Below, piece after piece: positions 2,467-63,214 of a stretch of DNA of 64,000 bases. Both the position numbers and the translations under genes were made by a program. Positions within the stretch are counted from its first letter, which is position 1; each line of letters opens with the position of its first letter. Origin of the DNA: Semisulcospira habei (Eukaryota > Mollusca > Gastropoda > Semisulcospiridae). The notes under the pieces are model-generated. The model saw only the letters and a list, made by a program, of their open reading frames with translations. It made no database searches and was not told where the DNA came from. The stretch lies in NCBI GenBank assembly GCA_036245525.1, contig BTPG01000004.1, positions 47,798,823 to 47,862,822 of the forward strand, written 5' to 3'.

Positions 2467-2499
2467 AGAAGGTAGCCGCGGATCGTGATGGGAGCCAAA

Positions 2500-4031
2500 C
2501 CTTGGTCCTGGAAGAGCCAGAGAAAAAGTCCGCGAGCTGAGGAGTCGTCAGGTCGACGGGGGAGAGGCGACGGTCAGAGCACCAGATACGTAGCACCCGC
2601 CACTTTCCCTCGTAGACACGTCTGGTGGAAGGCCTGCGGGGTGTAGCGATAGCGTCCACTGCGGCACTTGAGAAGCCTCTAGCGGAGAGGGCTTGCCGCA
2701 CAATCGCCAGGCGTGTAGGAGAAGATGCTCGGGGCAGGGGTGGAAGAGCGGCTGGTGGGGCTGCTTGAGCATCGCGCGCGGGGTGGGAAGCGGGAGGGGA
2801 GGGTCCGTGGCAAGACTGAGCAGGTCGGTAGTCCACAATCTGGTCCAGGACAAGAGGCCACCAGAAGAAGGACTGCGATGCATCCCCGGAGCTTGAGCAG
2901 GACTTTGGGGACCAGGACCATCGGCGGGTAGGCGTAAGCGACCAGCCCGTCCCAAGGGATCGAAGGCACATTGACTGCCCCAGCCAGAGGGTCTGGAAGC
3001 GGGGAGACGAAGAGGGGAAGCTGGTGGTTCCACCTCGCGGCAAAGAGATCGATGAGGGGAGTCTCCAAATGGTCGCAGAACAGGCAAAAGATGTCCCGGC
3101 GCAGGGTCCATTCCGTGTGAAGAAGTTGACCCCGCCACGAAAGGGAGTCGGCCAGGAAGTTCAGGTGACCTGGAATGTGACGCGCTCGGAGGGAAATGCC
3201 GTGGTCCTCGCACCAGCGAAGGAGTCGGTAGCGGAGGATGCAGAGGTCGGGGGAGCGGGACCCTCCCTGCTTCTGAAGGTATGCAACGACTGTGGAGTTG
3301 TAGGAGAGGACGAGGAGGTCCTGTGCCCGAAGATCGGATTCCCAAGCGTGGAGGGCCTGCCAAACTGCATTCAGTTCCCGCCAGATGAAGTGCCGGGAAG
3401 CCAGGTTCGCAGTCCAGCGGCCGGCTGTTGAGCGAAAACTCGGAAGAAGGTGCGCGCCCCAACCGGCGAGACTGGCATCGACACAGAGAGAGATGGGGCA
3501 ATGGCGAGGTCAGGGGGATCCCGGAGCCGAGCCAAGAAATGTCCGTCCAGCGAAGCAGATGGGGCCGCAGCATAGGAGGGATCGGCTCCAGGGTAGAGAG
3601 ATCGCCGGAGGACGGTCTCCAGTGGAGGAGAAGATGCAGTTGGAGAAGACGGGAGTACAGACGACCGAGGGGAAGGAGATCTGCCATGGCACACATCAGG
3701 CCGAGGAGCTGGAGCCACACTCTGGCGGGGACAGCCGCTTCCTGAGCTACCAAATGGGCTAGATCGGCGAGTTCTGGATCCGAGGCCCGGGAAGCCGCAC
3801 CAGGTTGAGGTCGGTCACAAACTCCATCCCCAGGTGAACAAAGTGGTGTGAGGGTGAGAGGTCCGACTTGTCTGCGTTGACCAGGAAGCCCAGGCGAGAA
3901 AACAGAAGGAGAAGAGCATCCCTGTCCTTGAGAAGAGAGACCACCGACTGATTCCGCAGAAGCAGGTCGTCTAAATAGTTGGAGATCGGGCTGGAGGATG
4001 ACCGTCGGGCTCTGGCAACCACGGCGTCCAT
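2500..4031 (-). pseudogene. DIRS RT and RNase H remnants
   Basis: The frame at 3759-4031 (minus) encodes the reverse transcriptase active site in ISNYLDDLLLRNQSVV, followed by LGMEFVTDLNLVRLPG, as in DIRS-type pol proteins. Downstream, other frames give RNase H-like pieces: a DASLAGWGAH-like segment near 3470, NSTVVAYLQKQ near 3290 and an ADSLSW segment near 3150. Frame changes separate the pieces. The long open frame at 2548-4218 on the same strand is mostly a different frame over the same region, kept open by high GC content. Confidence 0.65.
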
Positions 4032-4435
4032 GATCCGCGTAAAGACCCATGGGCTGAGATAGAGACCAAACAGGAGGAGAAGAAGAAGGTTTGGTAGTCC
4101 AGTAGCGCCGAACCAAGTCCAGAGAACAACAGCAAACCAAAGCGACCAACCCTTTAAGAACTGGTTCCAACCAGTACAAGGTCCTGTAGGCTAAATACGT
4201 CTGCACAGCTTGAGCCAAGTAGCAACAACTGAATGCTTACGCCATGTGGCACGTGACCGGATGGGCAGGGGCGGGAGACAACTCTCGGCCCTAGGCAGGG
4301 TTCACCGAGTGCCTCCCGGGTTGCGTAGCAACACAATGGGTTCTTAGGCTGAAATTGAGTAAGTATTAGACACTTCCAGACAGTAATGTCATCAGTAATG
4401 TTTTTGAAGAAACAAATACTGACTTCCATTAAAAA

Positions 4436-32588: not shown

Positions 32589-33926
32589 CTAAGGCAACTG
32601 TTTATGAAGATCTGTACTCTGTTGACTGTGGTTTTTGTCAATCTCCAAGTCTCTGCTCCATATAGGAGAACTGCTTTTACGTTGGAGTTGAAAATCCGGA
32701 CTTTTGTGTTGTGACAGCTCTCTGGAACTCCACACTTTTTTCAACCGGAGAAAGGCTGCTCTGGCTTTATCGATTCGTGCTCTGGCATCTGCATAAGTGC
32801 CGCCTTTTTTGTCTATGACGCTCCCGAGATAGGTGAAGGACTCCACCTCCTCCAACTGGGTGCCAGCAAGCAATACTAGTTCTTCCCTGGTTGTGTTCAG
32901 CCTCATTGTCTTTGTTTTCTGTTTGTGGATGGTGAGGCCCACTTGGGACGAGATGTCAGCAAGCCTCGTGGTCTTGTCCTGCATTTGTTGATGAGTGTGG
33001 GACAGTAAAACCAAGTCGTCTGCAAAATCGAGGTCGTCAAGCTGTGTCCACAGTGTCCACTGTATTCCACTTCGTCTGTGCTCTGTGGTCCTCTTCATGA
33101 CCCAGTCTATGGCCAGTAGGAAGAGGAACGGAGACAGCAAACACCCCTGCCTGACACCGGTTCTGACCTGGAGCTCCCTGGTGAACTGCCCTTCGTGGAT
33201 CACACATGTCATGCCATTGTAGCTGCTCTTGATCAGGCTGACGAGCTTTGTGGGTACACCGTAGTGTCGTAGGAGTTTCCACAGAGTCTCTCGGTCCACG
33301 CTGTAAAATGCATTCTCATAATCCACAAAGTTGACGTACAGCTGGGAGCTCCACTCCAGAGACTGTTCCACGATGATGCGGAGAGTGGCGATCTGGTCTG
33401 TACATGATCGGTTCTTCATGAATCCTGCTTGCTGGTCTCTCAGCTGGGGGTCAACGGAGCTCTTCATTCTCTCCAGGATGATCCTGTTAAAGACCTTTCC
33501 TGGTACTGACAGCAAGGTGATTCCTCTGTAGTTGGAACACTTGCCGAGGTCACCTTTCTTGGGAAGCTTGATTAGGTACCCCTCCTTCCAGTCAGCCGGC
33601 ATCACCTCCTCTTCCCAGATCTTTCCAAACAATAGGTACAGCATCTCTGCTGTTGTCTCTAGGTCTGCTTTCAGAGACTCCGCTGGGTTGCCATCTGGCC
33701 CTGACAGCAAGGTGATTCCTCTGTAGTTGGAACACTTGCCGAGGTCGCCTTTCTTGGGAAGCTTGATTAGGTACCCCTCCTTCCAGTCAGCCGGCATCAC
33801 CTCCTCTTCCCAGATCTTTCCAAACAGTGGGTACAGCATCTCTGCTGTTGTCTCTAGGTCTGCTTTCAGAGACTCCGCTGGGTTGCCATCTGGCCCTGCT
33901 GCTTTGCCGTTCTTCAAAAATGCCAC
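32589..33926 (-). pseudogene. RTE reverse transcriptase, copy 1
   Basis: Open for 445 codons but altered. The RT blocks [39 protein letters not shown] and [15 protein letters not shown] are readable; FADD is the active-site motif. A 65-codon segment (GPDGNPAESL to NYRGITLLS) occurs twice in a row. A frame change near 32720 separates the C-terminal block. The protein would copy element RNA at a nicked target. Confidence 0.8.
33506..33895. repeat. 195-bp in-frame tandem duplication in RTE copy 1
   Basis: Two units beginning CTGACAGCAAGGTGATTCC at 33506 and 33701 differ at only a few bases. Copy 2 of the element has a single unit, so the duplication arose after the copies separated. Confidence 0.92.
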
Positions 33927-33998
33927 TGCTCTTCTGATCTCTTCCCGGCTGGGTCTGTCACAGCTGATGGGTAGGTCGGTCTCTGCTGGCTGGATGTC

Positions 33999-34030
33999 GG
34001 GGGGGGGGGGAGGGGGGGGAGGGGGGGGGG
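33999..34030. repeat. expanded G tract in RTE copy 1
   Basis: G12-A-G8-A-G10. The sibling element has only seven G followed by TCGGGTGGGCTAGG at the same place (about 60187). Confidence 0.9.
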
Positions 34031-34041
34031 TCTGGGTCTGT

Positions 34042-35600
34042 TTAGTAACTCTTCAAAATACTCGGCCCATCTGTCGAGTTGGTTGCTCTGTCTGCAATAG
34101 GCTTGCCTTCTTTGTCTTTTACTGGTCTTTCTGTATGGCCATACTTGCCCGACAATCTTCTGATAATGTCGTAGAGCTGTTTCATGTTGCCGCTACCTGC
34201 TGCCTTTTCTGCCTCTGCTGCCAGGCTGTCTGAGTAGGCCCTCTTGTCTGCCCTGATACTCCTCTTCACCTCACGGTTGGCTTCCGAGTATTCCTCCTGT
34301 GCCCTTGCTTTGGCTGCTCTCGTGCGACTGTTGTTGACAACTGCTTTCTTCTGCTTCCTCACTTCTATCTTCTTCAAGGTCTGTGCCGACAGCCAGTCCT
34401 TGTGATGGTGTTTCCTGAACCCTACATTGTCTTTGCAGGTTGAGTTCAGCGCCTCTCTAACTGCCTTCCACTGCTGCTCTGTGGTGACCGCCTCCTCTTC
34501 ATTTACTAGCTCCTGTAGCGCTTGAAACCGGTTGGACAGCACCAGTTTGAACACTTCTCTCACACCAGTCTCTCTCAGGAGGCCTACATTATAGCGCTGT
34601 CTTCTTGTTGTCTCTGTGCGGCTTTTCTTTATCTTGAGCTTTATTCTTAAGGTAAGCAGATGGTGGTCTGAGGCGACATCTGCTCCCCTCCTCACTCGAA
34701 CATATTGAAGGGATCTTCTAAATTTCTTGCTAATGCAGATATGGTCTATTTGGTTCTCTGAAGTATGGTCAGGTGAGACCCAAGTTGCTTTGTGTATTCT
34801 TCTGTGTGGGAAGATGCTGCCTCCAATGACAAGTCGGTTTAGAGCACAAAAGTCTACAAACCTCTCCCCGTTCTCACTCATCTCCGAGCCTAGTCCCTGT
34901 CTCTCCATCACCTCTTCGTATCCGGTGTTGTCCTCCCCTATTTTGGCATTAAAATCGCCCATGACGATGGTGATGTCTCGCTCCGCACATTTGTCCACAG
35001 CACTCTGGAGTCGGTCGTAGAACTCTTGTTTCTCTTCCTCGTCACTGTCATTGGTGGGCGCATAACACTGGACGACGTTCAGCTTGAGCTTTTTCTTGGT
35101 TTTAAAGGCCGCTGTGATAATTCTTGGCCCAAGAGGTTCCCAGCCCATCAGCGCTCTCTGTGCCACTGGTGACAGCATGAATGCTACTCCTTCTGTATGG
35201 GGGGGGGGGGGGGGGGGCATTCTCCTCTTCATGACCTGAATACATAATCATCTCCCCACTTAACAGCCTTTTCTGGCCAGACTGCGTCCATCTGGCTTCA
35301 CTGATACCTAGCAAGGAAAGGTTGTACTTTTGCATTTCCGCTGCTATCTGGGCGGCCTTGCCACTCTGGTACATGGTCTTGAGTGACATTCCATGTGCCC
35401 ATGGTTGTGTCCCTGGATAGAGAGAGGCGGCTCAGTCCTGTGGCTTCCGAAGACTTCCGGCTTTCACCACAGGACGTCATAAATCTTCTGGTAGAAGAAC
35501 CTTCCTCCTCCAGGAAAGGAATTACTGTTTGTCTTTTCGTCGGCGTTTTTGTAGCTATTTCCTTTTTTCGGTTGCAGGGTGGGGAAGCTGAACCCACGCC
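34042..35600 (-). pseudogene. RTE AP-endonuclease domain, copy 1
   Basis: Apurinic-like endonuclease motifs are readable: [50 protein letters not shown] and [17 protein letters not shown]19 tract at 35199-35217 shifts the frame between SGHEEENA and HTEGVAFMLSP. The domain nicks target DNA to prime reverse transcription. Confidence 0.82.
35199..35217. repeat. G19 tract in RTE copy 1
   Basis: Copy 2 has six G at the homologous site (61382-61387). The 13 extra bases shift the reading frame. Confidence 0.93.
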
Positions 35601-35934
35601 CAACCCCCTTACTAGGAGGACCAGGGGTTTTCTGTCGGGGTCACCTTCCCTTAGACCATGTTGGTTCACGGCACCTTATTTCATTCGGTGCACCCCTCTC
35701 GCGAGGGACCCCCTATCCACCACCCAGGGGACACGCCTCAACGCCATATGGTCCCAGCGCGAGGCCAATTCCCTACACACACTGTAAAAACTTTAAAAAT
35801 AAACAAGTAATATCACAAACCTATACATAGCCACTCACATGCCCACACTCATCTACCACACACACACACAACACACACGCATAATAATCTAGGAAGTCTA
35901 AATTCATTAAAGGTACATCATTTAAAATGAAAAC

Positions 35935-36040
35935 AGTATATCTTAGAGTCTCTTGGCTTGACTTCGCGAACGAAGATTTTATAGGAGTTGCCCACGACGT
36001 CTGCAGGCTTGTTCGTGGCTGCGGAGGCCAATCCGAGACA
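35935..36040 (-). mobile_element. 3' terminal fragment of the zinc-finger LINE
   Basis: The minus strand reads [17 protein letters not shown] and then CCTATAAAATCTTCGTTCGC, closely matching the end of the LINE at 43640-45610. About 100 bp remain. Confidence 0.75.
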
Positions 36041-36104
36041 GATCTTAGAGTAAATATGTCACTAATTTAGTGATCACAGTCAGATGTTCACTGGTTACTA
36101 TATA

Positions 36105-36785
36105 TACACTCACAACTCGCGCACGCATGCGCATACTTTAGACAATGACTCATGTACCACAAATACATTACGACATTCAGCTTGGGGTGGGGAGTGTGGT
36201 GATATAGTGCTAGAACTGTTGAAAGAGGTGAGTTTTGAGGGCGGACTGGAAGGAGGAGAGAGAGTGTTTCTGACGGAGAGAGAGAGAGAGTGGGGGAATG
36301 TTCCAGCTGGATGGACTGTAGATGGAGAAGGAGCGGGGGCCGAAAGTGCTGAGTTTGGTGCGGGATATGTGGAGGCGGGGAGGGTAGGAAGAAGAGCGGA
36401 GGGAGCGGGAAGGAGTGTAGGGGTGAAGTAAGTTGGAGAGATAGGTAGGAGCGTAGTTGTTCATGGATTTGTAGCAGAGAGACAGAATCTTATAATATTG
36501 GGGGATGGGGAGCCAGTGATGGAGTTTGAGCAGGGGAGTGATGTGGTCTGATTTTTTCTTTCTGAGGACGAGGCGGGCAGCATTGTTCTGGACGTGCTGG
36601 AGAGTGAAAGTGGTGGAGTGAGGGAGGCCGGAAAGGAGAGAGTTGCAATAGTCGATGCGAGATAAGATGACAGCAAGTTTGGTGGCAGCTTCGGTGGTGA
36701 GGTATTTTCTGATGCTGTAAAGGCTGGTAAGCTTGCATTGTGTCATCAGGACATCAGCTGTCCTTTTTGTGACTGCATTGCTCAC
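36105..36785 (-). mobile_element. LINE family B, 5'-truncated copy
   Basis: The minus frame (36210-36785) reads [40 protein letters not shown] and ends [14 protein letters not shown]. It is about 85-90% similar by eye to the copy at 38065. The AAT-type tail is missing. Confidence 0.82.
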
Positions 36786-37033
36786 TAGTTCTAGAAAGGA
36801 GAGGGTAGTGGGAGAGAAGGACTGACAGACCTATCATTTTGAACCTTCCACTGAACACCTACTACATAAAGCAGTAAGGACTACCCCCAGGCGCCCCGTC
36901 ATCCGCTGGAGAATATCCAGACTTCCCCCAAAGGGGGATGCTAGAAAATATTCCCAAACAAATATTGGACCTGCTGAGTAGATTTAAGTTTTTGCCGCCT
37001 ACGACCGGTTTCGCCCCAAGGGGGTGGGGGGGT

Positions 37034-37047
37034 GGGGGGGGGGGGGG
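37034..37047. repeat. G14 tract
   Basis: Part of a G-rich stretch from 37020 (G5-T-G7-T-G14). Confidence 0.85.
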
Positions 37048-37870
37048 CTCTTCAGGTAGGCATACGGCGTAACCTGAAATTGCAAACACAACGCATGTAC
37101 TAGAAGCTGCCTCCAGAATTTACTGGTAGCACCACTAGTACAGCGCGGATTGCATCCCTAAAGCAGTGTTGCAGTGGAAGAAGACAGACTAATTTTGAAA
37201 AGGCAACACCTGAGAATGCTGTGCTAATGCCATGGAATTCTTCTTTGGGTTTAATGCCGAGCAGGCGACCAATGCCATCTCATGGAGGTTAAATAAAAAA
37301 GATAAAGTCTGCACTGAATTAAATATGCACAGCAGTTACAAGGGTATTCACCATGTCACAATGATATTGACAAAATTTGTCCAGGGCTGAAAGCGTTTTG
37401 CTACTAACACCCTTAATATCTACAAGCAATTACCCCGTATGCACTAAATTTAAAAAATGACCCTGAGATATGCTTAAGTGCTCCCTCATATTATATTGTC
37501 AGAAATCTGAACGCGGAACATGAGTGAGACACCTAATCTTTGCCACGTGCCACAGTTGAATGCCCTTTTGTGTGGCGATCATAGCTCTATTCAGTTTCAG
37601 GTATGCTAGGGGGACACATTCCTTTCAGGCCTTGAGGCACACTTTTATGAATAAGCTGCCATGTGGCTGAGGTTTTGAAAAGCCCATTGCCTTTTCAATC
37701 ACTGAGAGGTGACAAGTATCAGCTTAATATACTGAACAGGGGGCAGCATGCTTCTTTGAAAAGAGGGCCACAATTAACAAGAGGTTTTACAGGTCGGCTC
37801 AGTATACTCAAAACCATATTTACTGACAAAGGGACAAATGTGTTTATAAATTTTATTTCACGTTTTTTTT
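37048..37870. other. sequence without firm features; short repeat relic and open frame
   Basis: At 37246-37302 the minus strand resembles the CATGAGATGGC and GCTCGGCATTAAACCC repeat seen at 55312 and 63612. An open frame at 37663-37890 (GTG start) encodes SPLPFQSLRGDKYQLNILNR and could be a relic related to the cassette beyond the LINE, but nothing ties it to a family. Confidence 0.35.
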
Positions 37871-39488
37871 ATAATAATAATAATAATTAATAATAATAAA
37901 TAATACGGTATTTATAATGCGGTTATCTTATAATAATTATAACTCTATGCCCGCACTCACAACTCACGCACGCATGCGCACGCTTTAGACAACGACTCGT
38001 GTACCACAAATAGTGAAATACATTACGACAGTCAGCTTGGGGTGGGGAGTGTGGTGGTATAGTGCTAGAACTGTTGAAAGATGTGAGTTTTGAGGGCGGA
38101 CTGGAAGGTGGAGAGAGAGTGTTTCTGATGGAGAGAGAGTGGGAGAGTGTTCCAGGTGGATGGACCGTATACTGAGAAGGAGCGGGGGCCGAAAGTGCTG
38201 AGTTTGGTGCGGGGGTTGTGGAGGCGGAGAGGGTCAGAGGCGGAGTGAAGGGAGCGGGGAGGGGTGTAGGGGTGAAGTAAGTTTGAGAGATAGGCAGGAG
38301 TGCAGTTGTTCAGGGATTTGTAGCAGAGAGACAGAATCTTGTATTGGATGCGTTGGGGGATGGGAAGCCAGTGAAGGAGTTTGAGCAGGGGAGTGATGTG
38401 GTCGGATTTTTTCTTTCTGAGGACAAGGCGGGCAGCATTGTTCTGGACGCACTGGAGAGTGAAGGTGGTGGAGTGAGGGAGGCCGGAAAGGAGAGAGTTG
38501 CAGTAGTCGATGCGAGATAGGATGAGAGAGACAGCAAGTTTGGTGGCAGCTTCGGTAGTGAGGTATTTTCTGATCTGACTGATGCGACGGAGGTGGAAGT
38601 AGCATGCCTGGGTCGTGGCGGAGACGAAGCTGGTCATGGAAAGAGAGGAATCGAGGGGCTGGGAAAGTTTCTGGTGAGTGCCTACCAGCATGGCTTCCGT
38701 TTTGTCGTCATTCAGTTTAAGCTTGTTTGCTGTCATCCAGTTTTTCACATCTTCGTAGCAGTCAGCCGTGCGAGTCAGTAGTGACTGAGTGTTGTCGAGT
38801 TTGTCTTTGTCTAGTAGTTGTGAGTCGTCAGCGTAGAGGTGGTGGTGTATGTGGTGAGACTGGATGATGTTGGACAGGGGAGAGGTGTAGAGTGTGAAAA
38901 GGACCAGGCCCAGGACAGACCCCTGTGGAATGCCACAGGAGAGCGTGACTGGGTTGGAGGAGACGCCGTCGATGGTGACGGACTGCTGTCTGTCGGAGAG
39001 ATAGGAGAGAAACCAGGAGTGAGCAGAGTCAGTGATGCCAAAGGAGTGATGAAGGCGATGGAGGAGGATAGAGTGGTCTATAGTGTCGAAGGCGGCAGAG
39101 AGGTTGAGTAGCGTAAGAAGGGAGATGTTGCCCGAGTTGGTGGAGAGAAGCAGGTCGTTTAAGATATGTAGAAGGGCTGTTTCAGTGCTGTGATGTTTGC
39201 GATAGGCAGACTGGAAGGGACTGAGGAGGTTGTTGTTGGTGAGGTGGAGGTTGAGCTGGTTGAGAACGACCTTCTCAAGAAGCTTGGACAGGAAAGAGAG
39301 ATTGGAGACTGGGCGATAGTGTTTGAGTTTGTTTGGGTCGAGGTTGTTTTTTTTTAGGAGAGGACGGACAATGGCGGACTTGAAGATATCAGGGACGGAG
39401 CCGTTCTCTAGAGATGTGTTGTGATGTCGGTAATGAAGGGCAGAAGTTTTGGAAGGCCATCCCGGTAGAGAGAAGCTGGGAGAGGGTC
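37871..39488 (-). mobile_element. LINE family B, longest copy (CR1/L2-like)
   Basis: Minus-strand translation is open for about 450 codons (39415-38065) without an ATG. RT blocks are [48 protein letters not shown] and [11 protein letters not shown] (active site YADD). The C-terminus ends [14 protein letters not shown]. The endonuclease is missing, so the copy is 5'-truncated at about 39488, exactly where the small-ORF cassette begins. It ends in an AAT-type tail at 37871. Confidence 0.85.
38065..39415 (-). CDS. LINE family B reverse transcriptase fragment
   Basis: This frame carries the RT palm and thumb of a CR1/L2-type element. It has [20 protein letters not shown] with YADD downstream, then the C-terminal [19 protein letters not shown] and [19 protein letters not shown]. 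It is unusually well preserved, which suggests a recent insertion, but it lacks a start codon and an endonuclease and so cannot act alone. Confidence 0.75.
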
Positions 39489-39502: not shown

Positions 39503-39966
39503 ATGAACCAAGACGAATTGCCATTAATGAGTGATATCGGTGCTTTTGAAAACAAAGACTTAGACTAAAAAAACAGCGTGTTTTGTCAGTAGTTGTATCA
39601 GGCAAATCCAAAGCTTGTCTCAGGAAATGTTATTCCACAGATGATATTGAATCTCTAAGCAGAGAAGAGTTGATTAAACTTCATGCAAAGTATGACAATC
39701 ACATCGCTTCACTAATGACTCGTGATCTGAGTCGGTCTCTCCTGTGTTTATTCACAAAAGCTGTGAGTTACGCCCTTCCTGTAGACGTTGAAAATCTCAC
39801 AAATGATCTCGAAAATAATCATATCATTTGTAATTCAATCTGCAAATTAGCTTGCGTTATGTATTATAAGTTTGGAAATTACATCACACCTGTGGTAACT
39901 TTGCTTGTTACTGGGAGTCATATTGATTTCTCAAAATTAATTTTTTTTGCTGATCAAAATGAATGA
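39503..39966 (+). pseudogene. cassette ORF A, small protein with one frameshift
   Basis: A frame starting at ATG 39503 (MNQDELPLMSDIG) reaches a stop after 21 codons. The +1 frame open from 39550 carries the rest, including STDDIESLSREELIKLHAKY and a hydrophobic C-terminal third (CMYYK-type and NYITPVVTLLVTG segments). The switch falls in an A-rich stretch (39549-39575), so a single-base indel is likely. Its stop at 39964-39966 overlaps the ORF B start by 8 nt. It has no introns. I do not recognise a family; the packing is virus- or transposon-like. Confidence 0.55.
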
Positions 39967-40339
39967 CCAGGAGACGATCCCACAGTCGAACTCCAGCCCT
40001 GTTCCATCTCAGATTCAAATGGTGACCAGGGCTAAAAGTCTAGGCAGAATTCAGGCGGGAAAAAAGATTAGCCGAATGGAACAGAAAAAAAAATTAGAAC
40101 TTCAAGCGTTAACAGAAAAGGCTCATGTAACTGACCCGCCGTCAGAACCGTCAGGTTCATTAACAACCCCATCGGTGTCACCCCCATCTCCCCCACATCA
40201 AAGTGAGAGACTATCAACCGAGTCTAAACCCGAAACAACAAAATATATAGTTGCTGTATTTGTTGTCGGATTTGGTTCCGCAGGTTACCAATTATGGAAA
40301 AATACAAACCGCAGACTTGAACAGTGTCCAAAAAATTAA
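39959..40339 (+). pseudogene. cassette ORF B, single-pass membrane protein
   Basis: Starts MNDQETIPQSNSSPVPSQIQ, continues with a basic segment (AKSLGRIQAGKKISRMEQKK), a Pro/Ser-rich linker (PSEPSGSLTTPSVSPPSPP) and one hydrophobic span (YIVAVFVVGFGSAGYQLW). The frame stops at 40339. The neighbouring frame stays open without stops to about 40446 and ends in a second hydrophobic stretch, so a one-base loss in the A run near 40331-40337 probably shortened it. Start chosen at the ATG overlapping the ORF A stop. Confidence 0.55.
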
Positions 40340-40450
40340 ACACTCCAAAAACAAAACCAGAAGTTGCCACATTACCAGTAACATCCAAAGTTGTCGACCC
40401 ATTTTCATGGAGTAATAAATGTTTGATTTTAATTTTAATTGCATAAGAAA

Positions 40451-40681
40451 ATGAGCAAATCAAAAAACTTAATAAACCTTGTGTATCACTCTGCCGTAAT
40501 TAGCGGACTAGCTGTTTCTTATTCTATGCTTGCAAAAAGTCTTCTCAAAATGAAATCGGCAGACTTGAGTAGACTGGATTTTGAAGACAGTGCAAAGATA
40601 GTTGCTATTGTAACAGCTTCAGTTGCCACAAAAGACTTTCTCGTCATGCAGGGAATTATTCCCGAAAATGTTTCTATGTAA
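40451..40681 (+). CDS. cassette ORF C, small hydrophobic protein
   Basis: 76 codons from the ATG at 40451. It has a basic start (MSKSKNLINLVYH), a hydrophobic helix (SAVISGLAVSYSMLAKSLL), then MKSADLSRLDFEDSAKIVAI and a second hydrophobic part around VATKDFLVM. It lies a few bases after the extended end of ORF B and 12 bases before ORF D. No frame damage was seen. Function unknown; a small membrane or virion-associated protein is a reasonable guess. Confidence 0.6.
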   Translation: MSKSKNLINLVYHSAVISGLAVSYSMLAKSLLKMKSADLSRLDFEDSAKIVAIVTASVATKDFLVMQGIIPENVSM

Positions 40682-40693
40682 ATAAAAAATAAT

Positions 40694-41116
40694 ATGGCGA
40701 CTTTAGCCATTACAATTGGAGGGGCCATGGTCAACGCACTTGCTTTCAGTGGATCAAATTATCTCTTTTCAAAAGTGGGTAGAGAGAAATCAGCAGAAGA
40801 ATTAAAGCAACACAATGAGGCATCAGAAAAACTTGCACAAGCCCAGCAGGATTACGAAAAAAATAGAATAGAGAAACTTGATTTTATCAATGAAAAACTC
40901 AGACTTGAAGGTCACGCGCAGCATACATTTTCTAATGCCGATGATGCAATCTGTGAATATTTTCTCATTACGGGCAATGACATGTCCACCCCAAAGCCGA
41001 AACTTAGCGATTACTATCAACCAAGCACACAACAAAGAAACGGGGAGATAATCTTTGTTCTAGTGGGAATGACATTCGTTTATTTTACTGGACTTTTTAT
41101 TGCTAGAAAAAAATGA
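40694..41116 (+). CDS. cassette ORF D, membrane-anchored coiled-coil protein
   Basis: 140 codons. The N-terminus is hydrophobic (MATLAITIGGAMVNALAFSG), followed by a charged helix suited to a coiled coil (EELKQHNEASEKLAQAQQDY, then RIEKLDFINEKLRLEG). A middle region has DAICEYFLITGNDMS and KLSDYYQPS, and a C-terminal membrane span (GEIIFVLVGMTFVYFTGLFI) ends in ARKK. It is intact and ends 40 bases before a TG microsatellite. From memory, similar proteins occur in other marine invertebrate genomes next to ORF C-like genes, but I cannot verify this here. Confidence 0.65.
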   Translation: MATLAITIGGAMVNALAFSGSNYLFSKVGREKSAEELKQHNEASEKLAQAQQDYEKNRIEKLDFINEKLRLEGHAQHTFSNADDAICEYFLITGNDMSTPKPKLSDYYQPSTQQRNGEIIFVLVGMTFVYFTGLFIARKK

Positions 41117-41154
41117 CAGACATCGAAAATAAACTATCACAAATGCTTTGTTTG

Positions 41155-41232
41155 ACTGTGTGTGTGTGTATGTGTGTGTGTGTGTGTGTTTGTGTGTGTG
41201 TGTTCGTGTGTGTGTGTGTGTGTGTGTGTGAT

Positions 41233-41317
<85 letters not shown>

Positions 41318-43021: not shown

Positions 43022-43162
43022 ATGGCGGCACGTGGAGGTCGTAAGGGAGCAAGGGTGATAAAAAAAGTCCTAGACAAAGTGAAACATCCCCCTTTCTTGA
43101 AAGTTACCATTCCAGCAGGTCAGGCCACAGCAGCTCCACCCCTTGGCCCGCAGCTTGGACAG
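43022..43162 (+). CDS. MRPL11: MRPL11 exon 1
   Basis: ATG in CAAAAATGGCGG context; 47 codons ending PPLGPQLGQ at a CAG/GTTTGG donor, phase 0. The N-terminus ([20 protein letters not shown]) is basic and fits a mitochondrial protein, although a cleavable targeting peptide is not obvious. Confidence 0.93.
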
Positions 43163-49100: not shown

Positions 49101-51040
49101 AAGACGGCCATACCGCGATATACCGCGATATTTTTTGCCAGTACCGATATTTTCCAACGGTATACCGCCGTCCCCGATCCCATGTAATTTGATGACAATC
49201 TGGCCACTTGTACGTACAAGAATGCATGAAGAAGTTGAAACAAAATGAGAAAAGACAGACTCAAACACACCAGTGATCGTTTTTTTTATAAACAAACTTT
49301 AATTATTCAGTGTTCACTTTGAATACAAAATCAGGTAAACAAATACTATGGGGGAAAAAACACACTGAATCATTGAATGAAACCTACAGACATAGACTTT
49401 CTGGATGGATAACAAAAAAACCCAAAAAAAAACAGAAAATGAAAATTACACTCCTACTAAGAGAAACCTTTTAATGCTTTTTAAAAATTTTTAAAAATAT
49501 TTATTTATTTATTTATTATTGAACTGTACGAAAACGATTAGGCATGGCAGCCATATCAGTAGGAGTACTGTAGGACAGTCTCCACTTTCTAAAAAGAACA
49601 GTGCATGACTTTACAAGTTCTTTTTCAGAAAGAGGAGCTTGTCCACATGCTCTGGGTTCAGGGTAGCCCTTTGGCTGGTCAGAATGTCCCCAGCTGTCGA
49701 AAACACCCTCTCAGAGGGCACACTCGTAGCCGGGATGGCGAGGTAAATCCTCGCCACCCTAGCCAACAGAGGGAAGCGGTACTCATTCTGTTTCCACAAC
49801 AAGAGTGGGTTCTCCGCCATGCCAATCGATTTCTCCTCTCAATACTTCTTGACTTCTTCAGCTCCCTGCTGGTAGGTGGTCTTGCTCGGCTCGACATGTG
49901 TGACAAAGACATCTGTCAGAAGGGAGTCAAGCAGGCACGCTCCTTTGCTCTCGTACTTCCGTTCGTCCTCGGGTCTTTACAAAATGCTCTTCTTGGATCT
50001 CCTCAAGAACCTCAACATCATGGGCATGCTCATCAAGAGCTGGCGGACTGGGGGTGGCTGAAGTTCCAGGTTCTGCTGAAGTTCCAGGATCTGCTTTGAC
50101 TGCTTCGATGGTCTTGGGTTTTGTGTGCAAGCTCACTGTGACGTCAGTGAGTTTGCGGAAGATGCCATCGCGTTGTTCTGGTTCCATGTAGGAGAAAGAC
50201 TTGAAGCGTGGGTCCAAAGCTGAAATCGTCTGCAACATCTCTCTCTGTTCTGCATACCGGCCCTCCAGATCTGCTGCCATGATAGCCTTCATTTGCTGGA
50301 TGGACATGGAGTTGTCTGGCTTTGGGCGAAGATGTCCTTTTTCGCCAAGCAGACTCAAGAAGGGGCATGATCACAGACGAAGTCGGCATCTCCTCCGTGC
50401 ACATGAAGGTCGTCATGTCTTTCAGAGGTTTCAGAAAAGCTTCAAGTTCATGTGCGGCGGCGGCCTCCTCGTCATTCAGACTCGTGATGTCACGCTCTTT
50501 GAGATAGATCAGTTCTTTGGAGCGAATCACAGCTACGACAGCATCCTGCAGGTACAGAAATCGTGACAGCATGTCAAAGGCGGAGTTCCACCTGGTACAA
50601 ACATCAACCTTCAGCTTTTTTGCCTTCAGTTGAAGCAGTTCTGCCTTTGCATGGAGAAGGTTGGAAGCCAAATGACTCCTGTGAAAGAAGGTAGATATCC
50701 GCCTGATTCTACTCAATATGGCTGCGGTTCCATCCACCTTGAGCGCCTTCTGAACTGCAAGGTTGAGTGTGTGTGCAAAGCATCCCAAGTGCAGATGGCA
50801 TTGCAGCAGCTTTCCAGCCTTGACCATGTTTGATGCATTGTCCGACACAAGTGTGAGACCCAGCACACCCGGCAGTTTCCATTCTTTGATTGCTTCCGTG
50901 ATGACCCTGGTGATGTTTTCAGCTGTAACAGATGAAATAAAAAATCAATCAATTCTAGTTATTTTAAATGTGCACAAAAGGAGAAAAAAAACTCACAATC
51001 GTTCCTAAATGTTGATTTTTTGTTTTACAGCTTTTATCAC

Positions 51041-57700: not shown

Positions 57701-60700
57701 GAACAAAATCGGACCCAGCACCAAGCCCTAAGGCACTCCGAACAGAAGATGCCTCGAGCTAGATCAAGATCACAACTTGTGATTGTTCTGTTAGGTACGA
57801 CCTGAACCAAGCGAGGACATTACCATCTAGGCCAAAGACAAACTGAAGCCGGTGCAGAAGAATTTTGTAATCAATGGTATCAAATGCACTTGAAATGTTT
57901 AGCAAGGCAAGCACCGCGATCTTACGATTATCCAAAGCAGCAAGCAGGTCACTGAGTATCTTCAATAGGGCAGTCTCTGTGCTGTGAAAGGGTCTGTAAG
58001 CAGACTGCAGTGTACTAAACAGTTTATAATAGTTCGCTTGCTTTACACTGGTCGGTAGTTTTTCAGGATGTTTGGGTCCAGTGAGTTTTTTTTTTCTCTC
58101 AGGAAATAGTGTGTGCCCACACATGTACCTTGAAAACAGAATTGGGCGTACGAAAAATCGATATGATAATTTGCCCCCCTAAATGATACTGGTTTTAGAG
58201 TCTTGGCTTATGGACTAACGGTGGAGGATAGTGAAACTTTCAACGGGCCAATATTTTGGTTTTATGGCACAGGCACAAATCTAGTTACTTAAAAAAACCC
58301 AACATTGTTCTCTTTAAATATTGTACCTGGTATTATCTTGTCATAATGATTTATTGAGCCATATTTTGCTTGACATGGTGCTGATAACCGGCAGATGTGA
58401 TTGATTATGAGACCTGAATCAAAATGTTCAAGGCGTCGGCCTACATTCTGATTTGGGTTGAATAATCACATCTGTCGGTTATTGGCACTATTTCAAGCAA
58501 AATGTCAATATAATTTATGCACCCAATCCAAAACAAAATTTTACAATGAGTCCTTCATTTTGTGCCTGATCCCTGTGTTCAGACTTAGAGACTTGTTATG
58601 TACTCTTACTTACTTACGCCTGTCACCCCTACCCGGGTATAGGCCGTCGACGAGAGACCTCCAGCAACTCCTGTCCTGTGCTTCTCCTTCGATTCTGCTC
58701 CAGGTGGTTCCCAGTCTCTTGATGTCTGCTTGGAGGTCTCGACGCCAGGAGTTTCTCGGCCTACCTCTTTTCCTCTTTCCCTGGGGGTTCCATGACAATG
58801 CCTGCCTAGTGATACTGGAAGCTGGCTTTCTCAGACTGTGACCGATCCATCCCCATCTTCTTCGCCCAATTTCGTTCTCTGCTGTTATCTGCTCTGTTCT
58901 CTCCCAGAGTCTGACGTTGCTGATCTTCTCTGGCCAGTGGATTTTCAAAATTCTTCTAAGGCAACTGTTCATGAAGGTCTGTACTCTGTTGACTGTGGTT
59001 TTTGTCAATCTCCATGTCTCTGCTCCATATAGGAGAACTGCTTTTACATTGGAGTTGAAAATCCGGACTTTGGTGTGTTGTGACAGCTCTCTGGAACTCC
59101 ACACTTTTTTCAACTGGAGAAAGGCTGCTCTGGCTTTACCGATTCGTGCTCTGACATCTGCATCAGTGCCGCCTTTTTTGTCTATGATGCTCCCGAGATA
59201 GGTGAAGGACTCCACCTCCTCCAACGGGGTGCCAGCAAGCGATGAGCAGACTGGTTCTTCCTGGTTGCGTTCAGCCTCATTGTCTTTGTTTTCTGTTTGT
59301 GAATGGTGAGGCCCACTTGGGACGAGATGTCAGCAAGCCTCGTGGTCTTGTCCTGCATTTGTTGATGAGTGTGGGACAGTAATGCCAAGTCGTCTGCAAA
59401 ATCGAGGTCGTCAAGCTGTGTCCACAGTGTCCACTGTATTCCACTTCGTCTGTGCTCTGTGGTCATCTTCATGACCCAGTCTATGGCCAGTAGGAAGAGG
59501 AACGGAGACAGCAGACACCCCTGCCTGACACCAGTTCTGACCTGGAGCTCTCTGGTGAACTGCCCTTCGTGGATCACGCGACATGTCATGCCATCATAGC
59601 TGCTCTTGATCAGGCGGACGAGCTTTGTGGGTACACCGTAGTGTCGTAGGAGTTTCCACAGAGTCTCTCGGTCCACGCTGTCAAATGCTTTCTCATAATC
59701 CACAAAGTTGACGTACAGAGGGGAGCTCCACTCCAGAGACTGTTCCACGATGATGCGGAGAGTGGCGATCTGGTCTGTACATGATCGGTCTTCTGCTGCG
59801 TCCAATCCTGCTTGCTGGTCTCTCAGCTGGGGGTCAACGGAGCTCTTCATTCTCTCTAGGATGATCCTGTTGAAGACCTTTCCTGGTACTGACAGCAAGG
59901 TGATTCCTCTGTAGTTGGAACACTTGCTGAGGTCGCCTTTCTTGGGAAGCTTGATTAGGTACCCCTCCTTCCAGTCAGCTGGCATCACCTCCTCTTCCCA
60001 GATCTTTCCAAACAGTGGGTACAGCATCTCAACTGTTGTCTCTAGGTCTGCTTTCAGAGACTCCGCTGGGATGCCGTCTGGCCCTGCTGCTTTGCCATTC
60101 TTCAAAAATGCCACTGCTTTTCTGATCTCTTCCCGGCTGGGTCTGTCACAGCTGATGGGTAGGTCGGTCTCTGCCGGCTGGATGTCGGGGGGGTCGGGTG
60201 GGCTAGGTCTGTTCAGTAACTCTTCAAAATACTCGGCCCATCTGTTGAGTTGGTCTGCTCTGTCTGCAATAGGCTTGCCTTCTTTGTCTTTTACTGGTCT
60301 TTCTGTATGGCCATACTTACCCGACAATCTTCTGGTAATGTCGTGGCGCGTAGCTGTTTCGTGTTGCCGCTGCCTGCTGCCTTTTCTGCCTCTGCTGCCA
60401 GGCTGTCTGTGTAGGCCCTCTTGTCTGCCCTGATACTCCTCTTCACCTCGCGGTTGGCTTCCGAGTATTCCCCCTGTGCCCTTACTTTGGCTGCTCTCGT
60501 GCGACTGTTGTTGACAGCTGCTTTCTTCTGCTTCCTCGCTTCTATCTTCTTCAAGGTCTGTGCCGACAGCCAGTCCTTGTGGTGGTGTTTCCTGAACCCT
60601 ACAGTGTCTTTGCAGGTTGAGTTCAGCGCCTCTCTAACTGCCTTCCACTGCTGCTCTGTGGTGACCGCCTCCTCTTCATTTACTAGCTCCTGTAGCGCTT

Positions 60701-63214
60701 GAAACCGGTTGGACAGCACCAGTTTGAACTCTTCTCTAACTCCAGTTTCTCTCAGGAGGCCTACATTATAGCGCTGTCTTCTTGTTATCTCTATGCGGCT
60801 TTTCTTTAGCTTGAGCTTCATTCTTAAGGTAAGCAGATGGTGGTCGGAGGCGACATCTGCTCCCCTCCTCACTCGAACATCTTGAAGGGATCTTCTGGAT
60901 CTTAATTTCTTGCTAATGCAGATATGGTCTATTTGGTTCTCTGTTGTATGGTCAGGTGAGACCCAAGTTGCTTTGTGTATTCTTCTGTGTGGGAAGATGC
61001 TGCCTCCAATGACAAGTCGGTTTAGAGCACAAAAGTCTACAAACCTCTCCCCGTTCTCACTCATCTCCGAGCCTAGTCCCTGTCTCCCCATCACCTCTTC
61101 GTATCCGGTGTTGTCCTCCCCTATTTTGGCATTAAAATCGCCCATGACGATGGTGATGTCTCGCTCCGCACATTTGTCCACGGCACTCTGGAGTCGGTCG
61201 TAGAACTCTTGTTTCTCTTCCTCGTCACTGTCATTGGTGGGCGCATAACACTGGATGACGTTCAGCTTGAGCTTTTTCTTGGTTCTAAAGGCTGCTGTTA
61301 TAATTCTTGGCCCAAGAGGTTCCCAGCCCATCAGCGCTCTCTGTGCCACTGGTGACAGCATGAGTGCTACTCCTTCTGTATGGGGGGCATTCTCCTCTTC
61401 ATGACCTGAATACAGAACCATCTCCCCACTTAACAGCCTTTTCTGGCCAGACTGCGTCCATCTGGCTTCACTGATGCCTAGCAGGGAAAGGTTGTACTTT
61501 TGCATTTCCGCTGCTATCTGGGCGGCCTTGCCGCTCTGGTACATGGTCTTGACGTTCCATGTGCCCATGGTTGTATCCCTGGATAGAGAGAGGCGGCTCG
61601 GTCCTGTGGCTTCCGAAGACTTCCGGCTTTCACCACAGGACGTCATAAGTCTTCTGGTAGAAGAACCTTCCTCCTCCAGGAAAGGAATTACTGTTAGTCT
61701 TTTCGTCGGCGTTTTTGTAGCTATTTCCTTTTTTGCAGGGTGGGGAAGCAACCCCCACGCCCAACCCCCTTACTAGGAGGACCAGGGGTTTTCTGTCGGG
61801 GTCACCTTCCCTTAGACCATGTTGGTTCACGGCACCTTATTTCATTCGGTGCACCCCTCTCACGAGGGACCCCCTATCCACCACCCAGGGGACGCGCCTC
61901 AACGCCGTATGGTCCCAGCGCGAGGTTGTTATGTACTCAGGTACCCCATATGCTCCTGACTGACTTGAGAATTGATGCTTTTTTCCTGGCCGTTTATATT
62001 GGCACAGGGGGAGCAAAGCCAGAGGTATTCGACAGTTTTTGTAACAGTTAACTCATTTAGCCCGGACGCACCACACAAAGACATGGATCGAGCATGATAG
62101 TTCAACTAATAATATCATAATTTAATAAAATCATAATATCAAGGATCTGTATGTCTTGCAGATGTTTGGAGTTTTGTCTGTGCTCTCCATTCACGCGGTT
62201 TCTCTGCAGTGGTGTATCATCATTCATGACTTGACAGTTGTTGATACAAAGCTGTCAACAGAGGGCATAGGTTGGGCTGAGGCACAAGGGCTAAAAATAG
62301 TGACCCACGTCCCGCCCCCCCCCCCCCCCCCCCTCTGATATGGATGTGATCCAACTGTTTGAGTGCTTTCTGCCCCCAGAGTCAAACCCTTGTGCCACTA
62401 TTAAGCACTAGGTTACACATGTGAGCCATAAGGGCTTTGTGTTCTTCTTGTAAGCTGCCCACATTGTCACAGTTCAAAGCTCACTTAAAGACTTTTCTTT
62501 TCTGTCGGGCGTTTAAAATTTAGCTCACCTTTAGCTAACTGTTGACTGCCTATTATTCTGATTCTGGAGGGAAGTGGATGTAAGGCGTCGGGAAGGGATG
62601 GGGTGCGTTAAAGTAGTGTATAATTGTGCATGTGTCTGAGAGAGACTAGAGAGTGTGCTCTTGTGCATGCACAGCGAGTCCAGTGTTTTTTGAAGAACAG
62701 TGCTATACAAGAAGTATTTATTATTATTATTATTAAGCTATGGCTTGATAACATTAACATAAAGTTACAGTGTCCTTAGGTCTATTTTTGCTTATTAGAC
62801 CATTTTGTCACATACATTCAATATTCTGGTGGTTTTTTTTTCATAAGCAGCACTTGCATGTCTTGAGAAGGTCTTGTTGCTGTTGGGATGTTAAACCCAA
62901 CCAACCAATTTGATATGTACATACAGTACTGTTCTGTTTCTCTTGTCACAGGTCAGGAGCTTGCTGGGAAAGTGTCCCTGAAACACATCTATGAAATTGC
63001 TGTCATCAAGTCCAAGGACACTTCCTTCGAAAATGTGCCATTGGAACAGGTTTGCAAGCGGATCATTGGCACAGCTCATGGATGTGGCATTGAAGTTGTG
63101 CCTCACCTTGATGCAAACGATTACTGCCGTTTCATGGATAAGCGCAAAGTAGAATTGGAACAGCAAGCCAAAGAGTTGGAAGAGATACGCCAAGCCAAAA
63201 TGCTTCGATTATAA
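43022..63214 (+). CDS. MRPL11: mitochondrial ribosomal protein L11 (four exons)
   Basis: Exons 43022-43162, 47739-47834, 54305-54398 and 62952-63214 join in phase (141, 96, 94 and 260 coding bases plus stop) to 197 codons, close to the usual length of animal MRPL11. The protein is uL11m of the large mitochondrial ribosomal subunit, part of the stalk base that contacts translation factors. Hallmarks are [17 protein letters not shown] in exon 1, [20 protein letters not shown] in exon 2, [17 protein letters not shown] in exon 3 and [18 protein letters not shown] with [15 protein letters not shown] in exon 4. The C-terminus is a charged helix ending [12 protein letters not shown]. Introns total about 19.6 kb and are packed with transposons. 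Confidence in the exons is high. Confidence 0.95.
43352..43371. repeat. C20 tract
   Basis: Uninterrupted run in MRPL11 intron 1. Confidence 0.9.
43676..44219 (+). pseudogene. LINE reverse transcriptase, N-terminal part
   Basis: Begins near [20 protein letters not shown] and runs without a stop to the insertion at 44220. Its sense continues after 44823. Truncated at the 5' side. Confidence 0.7.
44220..44817 (+). mobile_element. 598-bp DNA transposon inside the LINE RT frame
   Basis: Perfect 14-bp terminal inverted repeats, CAGACCTGTTTACC and GGTAAACAGGTCTG, are flanked by a 6-bp direct duplication CATCAG (44214-44219 and 44818-44823). Removing the insert and one duplicate restores the LINE frame across ...CIITS and DAKLDKEL. 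Inside, from 44452, lies a fragment of a basic and acidic protein ([20 protein letters not shown]) and, in another frame, [11 protein letters not shown], which resembles the zinc-binding start of some transposase proteins. This suggests a deletion derivative of a larger element. Subterminal regions repeat TACACATTT many times. Superfamily uncertain. Confidence 0.85.
44824..45608 (+). pseudogene. LINE C-terminal region after the insertion
   Basis: Contains a Y/W-rich thumb-like block ([20 protein letters not shown]), [20 protein letters not shown] and [20 protein letters not shown]. The finger is read in the frame ending at about 45534 while the longer frame runs to 45608, showing one frameshift in the A run near 45424. 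Confidence 0.7.
45790..45925. repeat. short direct repeat (about 60 bp, two units)
   Basis: AATGGATGCCAATC(T/A)CACCG...TAAAGTTGTA occurs twice in a row. The second unit overlaps the end of the antisense exon at 45911-46037. Confidence 0.7.
45911..46037 (-). CDS. antisense exon 2 (terminal) of an unidentified gene
   Basis: A TTTTGCAG acceptor precedes CCTGCCAATCATC. With the two bases left by the exon at 46254-46396 it reads [20 protein letters not shown], continues [20 protein letters not shown] and stops at TAA (45911-45913). No family recognised. It lies inside MRPL11 intron 1 on the opposite strand. Confidence 0.5.
46254..46396 (-). CDS. antisense exon 1 of an unidentified gene
   Basis: A CTTGACAG acceptor and a GTGAGT donor flank 143 nt. 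It encodes [20 protein letters not shown], then [20 protein letters not shown] and EIRVPGP. The ATG at its start may be internal. The open frame at 46719-47012 on the same strand ([20 protein letters not shown], later CKQCGTL) could be an earlier exon of the same gene, but no matching donor was found. Confidence 0.5.
46503..46522. repeat. C20 tract
   Basis: Uninterrupted run between the antisense exon and the frame at 46719. Confidence 0.9.
46719..47012 (-). CDS. open frame, possible exon of the antisense gene
   Basis: 97 codons including [40 protein letters not shown] and [20 protein letters not shown], with a CxxC pair that could bind zinc. The composition looks coding. There is no clear acceptor or donor and no recognised family, so it may be a pseudogene or repeat relic. 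Confidence 0.35.
   Translation of the reverse strand: MHMLDQTSILPDLYWQCTLHLNGTTMVCRDPPLKCQLLLDFAKPDTHSHRAMAIPAFYRTTPVMCKQCGTLTVMPAACQAGQHLTALRYHRPTVLLQ
47739..47834 (+). CDS. MRPL11: MRPL11 exon 2
   Basis: A TCTCTTGCAG acceptor and GTATGT donor; 32 codons, phase 0, reading [20 protein letters not shown] and [12 protein letters not shown]. This is the conserved FCKxFNxxT...GIPLPTxI core of uL11. Confidence 0.95.
47940..49075 (-). repeat. R dispersed repeat with about 320-bp tandem units
   Basis: Begins TTTTTGGCTCACGTGCGAAG and contains R motifs in inverted orientation. CTTGGTACA(G/T)AGATACCTGATGG recurs at about 48312, 48628 and 48951, giving a 316-323 bp period. The array continues after the hAT insertion at 52005-52270 and ends CATGAGCCATAAGGGCTTTG. 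Confidence 0.82.
49611..50922 (-). pseudogene. hAT transposase, main exon, frameshifted
   Basis: Minus strand order: [20 protein letters not shown] after an acceptor at 50923, [19 protein letters not shown] (catalytic Asp), [32 protein letters not shown]. Then, after a one-base shift near 50345, [19 protein letters not shown], and after a second shift the hAT C-terminal dimerisation region [20 protein letters not shown], ending [16 protein letters not shown]. Most similar in style to ZBED-like hAT proteins. Cut-and-paste activity is lost in this copy. Confidence 0.85.
50923..51171 (-). other. hAT transposase intron containing the CA microsatellite
   Basis: The donor CATACAG/GTAATA and acceptor TTACAG/CTGAAAAC join ...PESHT to AENIT in phase. 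About 100 bp of the 249-bp intron is a CA/TG run. Confidence 0.6.
51042..51140. repeat. CA microsatellite
   Basis: About 100 bp of CA repeats inside the hAT intron. Confidence 0.95.
51172..51303 (-). pseudogene. hAT transposase, upstream exon
   Basis: Reads [20 protein letters not shown] (first catalytic Asp in TTDGW) and [14 protein letters not shown], ending at the donor at 51171. The N-terminal zinc finger exon was not found. Confidence 0.65.
51455..51768. repeat. inverted duplication with C and G tracts inside the hAT element
   Basis: Arms 51455-51552 and 51660-51768 are reverse complements, containing ACTGATTCTGCAGACGACAG. Each arm has a homopolymer at the same place: C21 at 51518-51538 and G31 at 51675-51705. 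The spacer is about 107 bp. Confidence 0.93.
52005..52270 (-). repeat. R repeat, continuation after the hAT insertion
   Basis: Resumes TTATCAAAGTTTTTGTAAAC exactly as other R units continue, and ends with CATGAGCCATAAGGGCTTTG. Confidence 0.8.
52271..53101. other. MRPL11 intron 2 without recognised features
   Basis: No exon or repeat boundary supported; open frames at 52666-53120 lack splice or family support. Confidence 0.4.
53102..53325. mobile_element. TTAA hairpin MITE, copy 9 (type B)
   Basis: Left end TCAACTCATATCATACTG (mutated TTAA), right end GAATGATAAGGGTTAA. The hairpin (about 53203-53275) has arms with GTGCCAGAATAGCTTGGCGC and their complement. It is inverted relative to copy 10. 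Confidence 0.82.
53729..53752. repeat. G-rich tract
   Basis: G15-T-G8, between two inverted hairpin MITEs. Confidence 0.9.
54048..54272. mobile_element. TTAA hairpin MITE, copy 10 (type B)
   Basis: Ends TTAACCCTTATCATTCGG and GTATGGTATGGGTTAA with an intact TTAA duplication. Almost the whole 225 bp is the reverse complement of copy 9. It ends only 32 bp before MRPL11 exon 3, so it covers the region where the branch point should lie. Confidence 0.88.
54305..54398 (+). CDS. MRPL11: MRPL11 exon 3
   Basis: A TCATCACCAG acceptor and GTAAGT donor; 31 codons plus one base: [31 protein letters not shown] and the first base of a glycine codon. Matches the uL11 PDRxFE...PPxxFxLKxAAG core. Confidence 0.95.
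54770..54950 (-). repeat. R dispersed repeat fragment
   Basis: TTGGCATTTTATTGGAGACT, AAACTTGGCCCAAGGATACT and CAAGACCTTTCTAAACATAC are R motifs in inverted orientation. Confidence 0.65.
55312..55372 (+). repeat. short dispersed repeat tail
   Basis: CCCCATGAGATGGCCTGAGT and CTGCTCAGCATTAAAACC resemble segments at 37246-37302 (inverted) and 63612-63675, probably the 3' end of a SINE. Confidence 0.5.
55771..55894. repeat. 124-bp element with perfect 24-bp inverted ends
   Basis: GTGAAAGGAAAACAGAAAAT plus AGAG at 55771-55794 is exactly mirrored at 55871-55894. An ACAAAGCATCATAAT-type direct repeat lies at about 55725 and 55893. No coding sequence. Confidence 0.88.
56547..58125 (-). mobile_element. 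LINE family C (CR1/L2-like), degraded
   Basis: An AAT-type tail at 56547-56567 precedes RT remnants on the minus strand: [19 protein letters not shown] and [20 protein letters not shown] (57759-58050), then [20 protein letters not shown] and [20 protein letters not shown] (57006-57305). Many frameshifts. The 5' half is missing. Confidence 0.75.
58593..58605. repeat. target-site duplication of RTE copy 2, 3' side
   Basis: TTGTTATGTACTC, identical to 61926-61938. Confidence 0.92.
58610..59224 (-). pseudogene. RTE C-terminal domain, copy 2
   Basis: Reads [60 protein letters not shown] and [20 protein letters not shown], ending GDRRK. Its stop codon TAA falls inside the GTAA tail repeat, so there is essentially no 3' UTR. 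Separated from RT by a frameshift near 59240. Confidence 0.85.
59182..60327 (-). pseudogene. RTE reverse transcriptase, copy 2
   Basis: Nearly intact [81 protein letters not shown] and [15 protein letters not shown] with the FADD active site. A four-base insertion (GCGC near 60344) offsets it from the endonuclease frame. Confidence 0.88.
60291..61751 (-). pseudogene. RTE AP-endonuclease, copy 2
   Basis: Reads [80 protein letters not shown] and [20 protein letters not shown]. The N, E, D-x-N and SDH residues of the endonuclease/phosphatase fold are in place. Frame ends after the insertion near 60344. Confidence 0.9.
61926..61938. repeat. target-site duplication of RTE copy 2, 5' side
   Basis: TTGTTATGTACTC, directly after the element's 5' end. 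Confidence 0.92.
62048..62105. mobile_element. TTAA hairpin MITE, copy 11 (truncated)
   Basis: Starts TTAACTCATTTAGCCCGG and ends abruptly after GATAGTTCAA, where the hairpin arm would begin. Confidence 0.6.
62315..62333. repeat. C19 tract
   Basis: Run in MRPL11 intron 3. Confidence 0.9.
62460..62745 (+). mobile_element. LINE family A, 3' end only
   Basis: GGAAGTGGATGTAAGGCGTC, AAGTAGTGTATAATTGTGCA and a final ATT-type tail match the complement of 23381-23650. Only 3' UTR remains. Confidence 0.78.
62952..63214 (+). CDS. MRPL11: MRPL11 exon 4 (terminal)
   Basis: A CTTGTCACAG acceptor, phase 1. Encodes [39 protein letters not shown] and a charged C-terminal helix, stop TAA at 63212-63214. 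The open frame extends 5' to 62888 through intron sequence; the splice phase fixes the true start. Confidence 0.95.

Follow-up and report, generated by a model that had tools for sequence, protein, structure and literature searches.

A decayed four-gene cassette in the genome of Semisulcospira habei and its probable viral relatives in mussels

The genome of the gastropod Semisulcospira habei carries, on contig BTPG01000004.1, a compact row of four small open reading frames (ORFs), here called A, B, C and D, that lie head to tail on the plus strand at positions 39503-41116 of the 64,000-nucleotide stretch analysed (the window; contig positions 47,798,823 to 47,862,822). What is such a cassette, and where did it come from? 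The original prediction, made from the letters of the DNA, took it for a conserved mobile or viral module. The best explanation is that the cassette is probably the decayed remnant of a small double-stranded DNA virus that became endogenous, or of a virus-like transposon, belonging to the double jelly-roll (DJR) capsid lineage and having relatives in mussel genomes. Since in mussels the four genes stand directly behind the capsid and packaging genes of a virus-like DNA element that has been little studied, a decayed piece of virus is the most likely source of the cassette. The window holds only A-D of the element, both termini of which are missing there, and the frame of A is broken. As a working unit the module does not survive here, where the copy is a broken relic that most likely does nothing.

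The cassette and its four proteins

ORFs B (126 amino acids, 39959-40339), C (76 amino acids, 40451-40681) and D (140 amino acids, 40694-41116) are intact from ATG to stop in the ORF listing. ORF A (39503-39966) starts at 39503, but its own frame stops at 39568, with a break near residue 20, and the portion that has homologues lies in a different frame, which runs open over 39550-39966. B begins within the last 8 nucleotides of A (ATGAATGA) and 12 nucleotides separate the stop of C from the start of D, so that the predicted packing, like the intact state of C and D, is borne out by the sequence. The prediction had also placed an indel in both A and B. That in A agrees with the broken frame, but a break in B is unproven, because no homologue covers 40321-40446, even if the frame there is open. 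An ATG at 41113 shares letters with the stop codon of D (ATGA), and a fifth ORF, E, therefore starts there on the plus strand; according to the sequence and the ORF list it extends over 41113-41156 before the TG repeat cuts it off.

The reality of the four-ORF arrangement was assessed with 2000 dinucleotide-preserving shuffles of 39503-41119, in which plus-strand open stretches were counted. None of the 2000 contained three such stretches of at least 130 codons, the real region having stretches of 144, 138 and 132 codons. In 26 of the 2000 one stretch reached 144 codons or more, and ORF length alone is consequently weak evidence. It is homology that settles A, C and D as real, and together with the shuffle control these homologues led to the rejection of chance ORFs.

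Hydropathy was judged on the Kyte-Doolittle scale with a threshold, chosen by the authors, of 1.3 over 19 residues. Clear hydrophobic spans had been proposed for B, C and D: D passes strongly and C shows two modest peaks, but B, which has a basic first half and a weakly hydrophobic stretch near its end, stays below the threshold. A has one modest peak. The plan of D, with both ends hydrophobic and a charged, coiled-coil-like middle, recurs in its homologues, where by author-chosen thresholds the C-terminal span passes in 39 and the N-terminal span in 38 of the 40 proteins aligned. A is predicted to be alpha-helical (mean pLDDT, the predicted local distance difference test score, of 67), and a search for a fold matching this model found none. 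Searches of Pfam and PHROGs with A-D gave no convincing family, a search of the PDB with D gave no match, and when 40 members of the D family were scanned against Pfam no family matched more than one of them. The Pfam matches PFam54_60 (to D, E 0.024) and DUF249 (to an 83-residue piece of A, E 0.016) fall below the cut-off and are taken as chance, as are weak PHROGs matches, the best of which (0.015) was to B.

Homologues and gene order in mussels

A database search with D found 106 homologues at E <= 0.01, of which 58, by the authors' count, come from contigs 100 kb or longer; those with an organism name come from Mytilus coruscus and from a metagenome-assembled genome (MAG) labelled Candidatus Thiodiazotropha. 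When 343 collected proteins were compared with the cassette by tblastn (E <= 1e-3), 107 matched D (the 106 and P0167), four matched A (P0113, P0114, P0167 and P0196), two matched C (P0169 and P0090, the latter a C-D fusion) and none of the 343 matched B. Against the whole 64-kb window, A is matched by P0114 of Mytilus edulis (E 5e-19, covering 39562-39927), C by P0169 of M. coruscus (E 4e-7) and D by P0017 (E 1e-40); against a 2.1-kb region, P0196 matches A at E 3e-21. At the place of B, the Mytilus model P0167 has a basic stretch with an AGKK motif that by eye resembles the one in B. Judging from the protein letters, Mytilus may also possess an A/B overlap like that of the window.

The N-terminus of P0017 is foreign to D, and a search with that part returned 593 relatives, the best 120 of which were listed. 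These belong to the Pox_A32 family of packaging ATPases (nine of nine aligned). Among the collected proteins, with the ATPase set limited to those best 120, all seven models that continue for at least 40 residues beyond the ATPase carry a cassette gene there: D in P0017 and P0018, A in P0113, P0114 and P0196, C in P0169, and A, a B-like part and D in P0167, which thus reads ATPase-A-(B-like)-D. The seven models lie on seven contigs, six of M. coruscus and one of M. edulis (P0114). Two of them, P0017 and P0018, were bound to pass this count, having been collected with D as the query; the other five were collected with the ATPase. The ATPase and the cassette genes appear joined in these models because the genes lie so close together.

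Ahead of the ATPase, P0136 and P0120 contain the end of a 421-residue protein, and the same order is seen in P0339 and P0134, which are consecutive locus tags of one MAG. All 20 members examined of this protein's family match Capsid_N at E <= 0.05. Its predicted structure is of low confidence, and for this reason a DJR major capsid protein (MCP) is a likely rather than a proven identity; the Foldseek and VIA matches of the model to DJR MCPs nonetheless strongly suggest the fold, and on this poor model the top matches are capsids of the type found in nucleocytoplasmic large DNA viruses (NCLDVs). The capsid family numbers 1016 homologues at E <= 0.001 beside the 593 of the ATPase; many members of the two families sit on large contigs and, when an organism is given, come from Mytilus. 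Because the ATPase extensions match A, C and D and the MCP is directly upstream of the ATPase, the order in the relatives is read from these protein models as MCP-ATPase-A-B-C-D.

Hence the expectation that the same order would be found beside capsid or ATPase genes holds for seven Mytilus models, with a likely DJR capsid before the ATPase, and the prediction of a conserved mobile or viral module gains support from both. No polymerase or integrase is linked to the block, and the named sources are Mytilus and Candidatus Thiodiazotropha MAGs, with no cnidarian homologue shown. In terms of the features that define Varidnaviria, the relatives have a likely DJR MCP and a packaging ATPase of the FtsK/HerA/A32 type; the packaging ATPase is absent from the 64-kb window, which holds only A-D, and the evidence for the DJR MCP likewise comes from the relatives.

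Pieces that precede the ATPase in P0117, P0131, P0140, P0168, P0175 and P0197 are mutually unlike by eye and were taken as host misjoins; P0168 carries a C1q label and P0175 a leucine-rich repeat label. Residues 1-117 of P0228 (M. edulis) are possibly a fibre-like segment fused ahead of the capsid, and may represent the next upstream gene or a misjoin. The capsid cluster of P0252 comprises 78 contigs from several sources, the longest of 10,992 bases, and might represent an element that exists free or in great abundance.

The history of D was followed in one tree, built by a quick method from few columns and rooted at the midpoint, of the window protein and 72 of the best 80 of its 106 matches, eight short ones having been dropped and matches 81-106 left out. 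The window D pairs with P0001 (Shimodaira-Hasegawa-like approximate likelihood ratio test, SH-aLRT, 99) within a group of 15 that is separate from the Mytilus rows. Another group, of 27 rows (SH-aLRT 99), is star-like and includes, with zero branch length, the copy P0020, which comes from a contig of 5.5 kb in the bin of a clam symbiont. This shape suggests a recent burst of the clade from a master or free copy.

Nature of the element and possible roles of its proteins

In the relatives, the MCP and the A32-type genome-packaging ATPase are followed by A-B-C-D, all packed tightly on one strand, and A-D may be late proteins of virion assembly. Their position and hydropathy suggest a place in the virion, either in its membrane or at the packaging vertex. 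Both D and C would then be small membrane proteins, situated in the particle membrane or at the vertex through which DNA is driven in by the ATPase, with the charged helix of D bridging two membrane-touching ends; the basic part of B might touch DNA or capsid, and A might act as a helical adaptor.

A comparison with PRD1 and other tectiviruses, and with the Sulfolobus turreted icosahedral virus (STIV), is instructive. These share the probable fold class of the MCP and encode small hydrophobic proteins close to their packaging ATPase; in membrane-containing DJR phages, genes for virion membrane proteins occur in the region that follows it. The mussel-type element may, like PRD1 and STIV, have a virion membrane. 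Unlike it, PRD1 and STIV have prokaryotic hosts, and neither D nor its ATPase, the two queries used, has a match in phage records, so that a phage module was rejected. A bacterial origin was similarly set aside, as GTDB contigs contain no relative of D or the ATPase. The Candidatus Thiodiazotropha matches P0020, P0134, P0135 and P0339 (contigs of 1.9-5.9 kb) were taken to be DNA of the clam host or of a virus that was binned with the symbiont.

With its hydrophobic end, its charged helix and an anchor at the C-terminus, D would also suit membrane disruption, as would the small C, and A-D could be a lysis or egress set of holin- and spanin-like membrane proteins instead of virion parts. This reading is a serious rival but the less likely one, given that the block follows the packaging ATPase, the place of virion membrane genes in the phages just mentioned, and that no holin match was found in Pfam; three BFVD holins retrieved for A at E >= 7 are meaningless.

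Three other origins have to be set against a decayed small DJR virus. The cassette might come from an ordinary Maverick/Polinton of the Eupolintoviridae type (formerly Adintoviridae, according to passages of PMC12451622), a transposon already known from molluscs in which A-D would be accessory genes that annotation has largely missed. Such elements resemble the present one in their integration into animal genomes, their DJR capsid protein and their packaging ATPase; passages of PMC10294476 place Mavericks across all mollusc genomes analysed there, and passages of PMC11071308 describe Polintons as MCP-encoding viruses that are endogenous in protists and animals. They differ in that the MCP here, in a poor model, has capsids of NCLDV type as its first fold matches, and this origin is a doubtful one, if still the most serious of the three. 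A piece of a large, giant-virus-like nucleocytoplasmic genome integrated in the host would account for the Capsid_N and Pox_A32 matches and for those same fold matches, but it is improbable: D has no match in IMG/VR, A-D have no convincing match in Pfam, the ATPase and A-D are close enough for gene finders to join them, and the many copies of D resemble a small mobile element. IMG/VR holds no relative of the ATPase or MCP either. That A-D are host genes, retrocopies or chance ORFs could be argued from their lack of a named family and from the 26 shuffles with one long ORF, but the order kept behind a viral-type ATPase at seven loci, the many copies and the overlapping ORFs make this scarcely credible.

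Molluscs could perhaps carry a lineage of small DJR viruses that has so far escaped description, in which the particle contains a membrane, the capsid is NCLDV-like, the ATPase is A32-like and a conserved block of membrane proteins, A-B-C-D(-E), differs from that of known viruses. That the lineage might be still or recently active is suggested by the star-like D clade with its zero-length P0020, a branch such as a master or free copy would be expected to have; the proposal as a whole is put forward tentatively. Two further groups invite comparison. Meldviruses are animal-associated midsize double-stranded DNA elements whose member Meld23486 has a pox-like capsid gene with a fold like that of poxvirus D13, together with PolB and an integrase, and the A-D block finds no mention in the portion of text available (PMC11071296). 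Mriyaviruses and Yaraviridae share small genomes and an NCLDV-like MCP and ATPase, which are numbered neighbours in yaravirus; VLTF2, VLTF3 and RuvC are among their conserved genes according to passages of PMC11253617, and the word 'animal' is absent from that paper's main text. No description of the A-D block in bivalves was found in the titles, abstracts and some passages of the open-access literature.

A-D offer a handle on the assembly genes of the viral load represented by these capsid and ATPase families, which carried no name in the sources searched. Should they prove to be virion membrane proteins, small DNA viruses of animals would include some that assemble around a membrane in the manner of PRD1, and this would bear on the kinship of polintons, giant viruses and membrane phages.

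Surroundings of the cassette

The cassette is bordered on the left by a long interspersed nuclear element (LINE), whose minus-strand reverse-transcriptase ORF (38065-39486; RVT_1, E 3.3e-30) ends at 39486, and on the right by a TG microsatellite (41157-41316) that begins at about 41157, both as originally described. Comparison of the right edge of the LINE with 35800-38100 revealed no exact match longer than 9 nucleotides, and therefore no clear target-site duplication. Part of this LINE has a second copy, 88% identical (36107-36713 and 37954-38574). Two similar-looking LINE copies with endonuclease and reverse transcriptase lie on the minus strand at 32589-35247 and 58610-61769, the second recognised by Pfam and the first by eye. 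Also on the minus strand, an ORF at 50144-50944 appears by eye to be hAT-type transposase-like, with no Pfam match at E <= 0.001. A full-length 5S rRNA match (110 bits) on the same strand at 1824-1942 stands beside a minus-strand block of long ORFs at 2113-4236; two of these ORFs have no Pfam match and look DIRS/Ngaro-like. About 1.9 kb to the right of the cassette, a gene of the ribosomal protein L11 type has an exon starting at 43022 (Ribosomal_L11_N, E 9e-7, below the Pfam cut-off), and a later part is found at 62867-63211 (Ribosomal_L11, E 2.5e-14). These plus-strand pieces of an L11-like, probably mitochondrial gene span 43022-63211; the roughly 20 kb that separate them contain fragments of reverse transcriptase.
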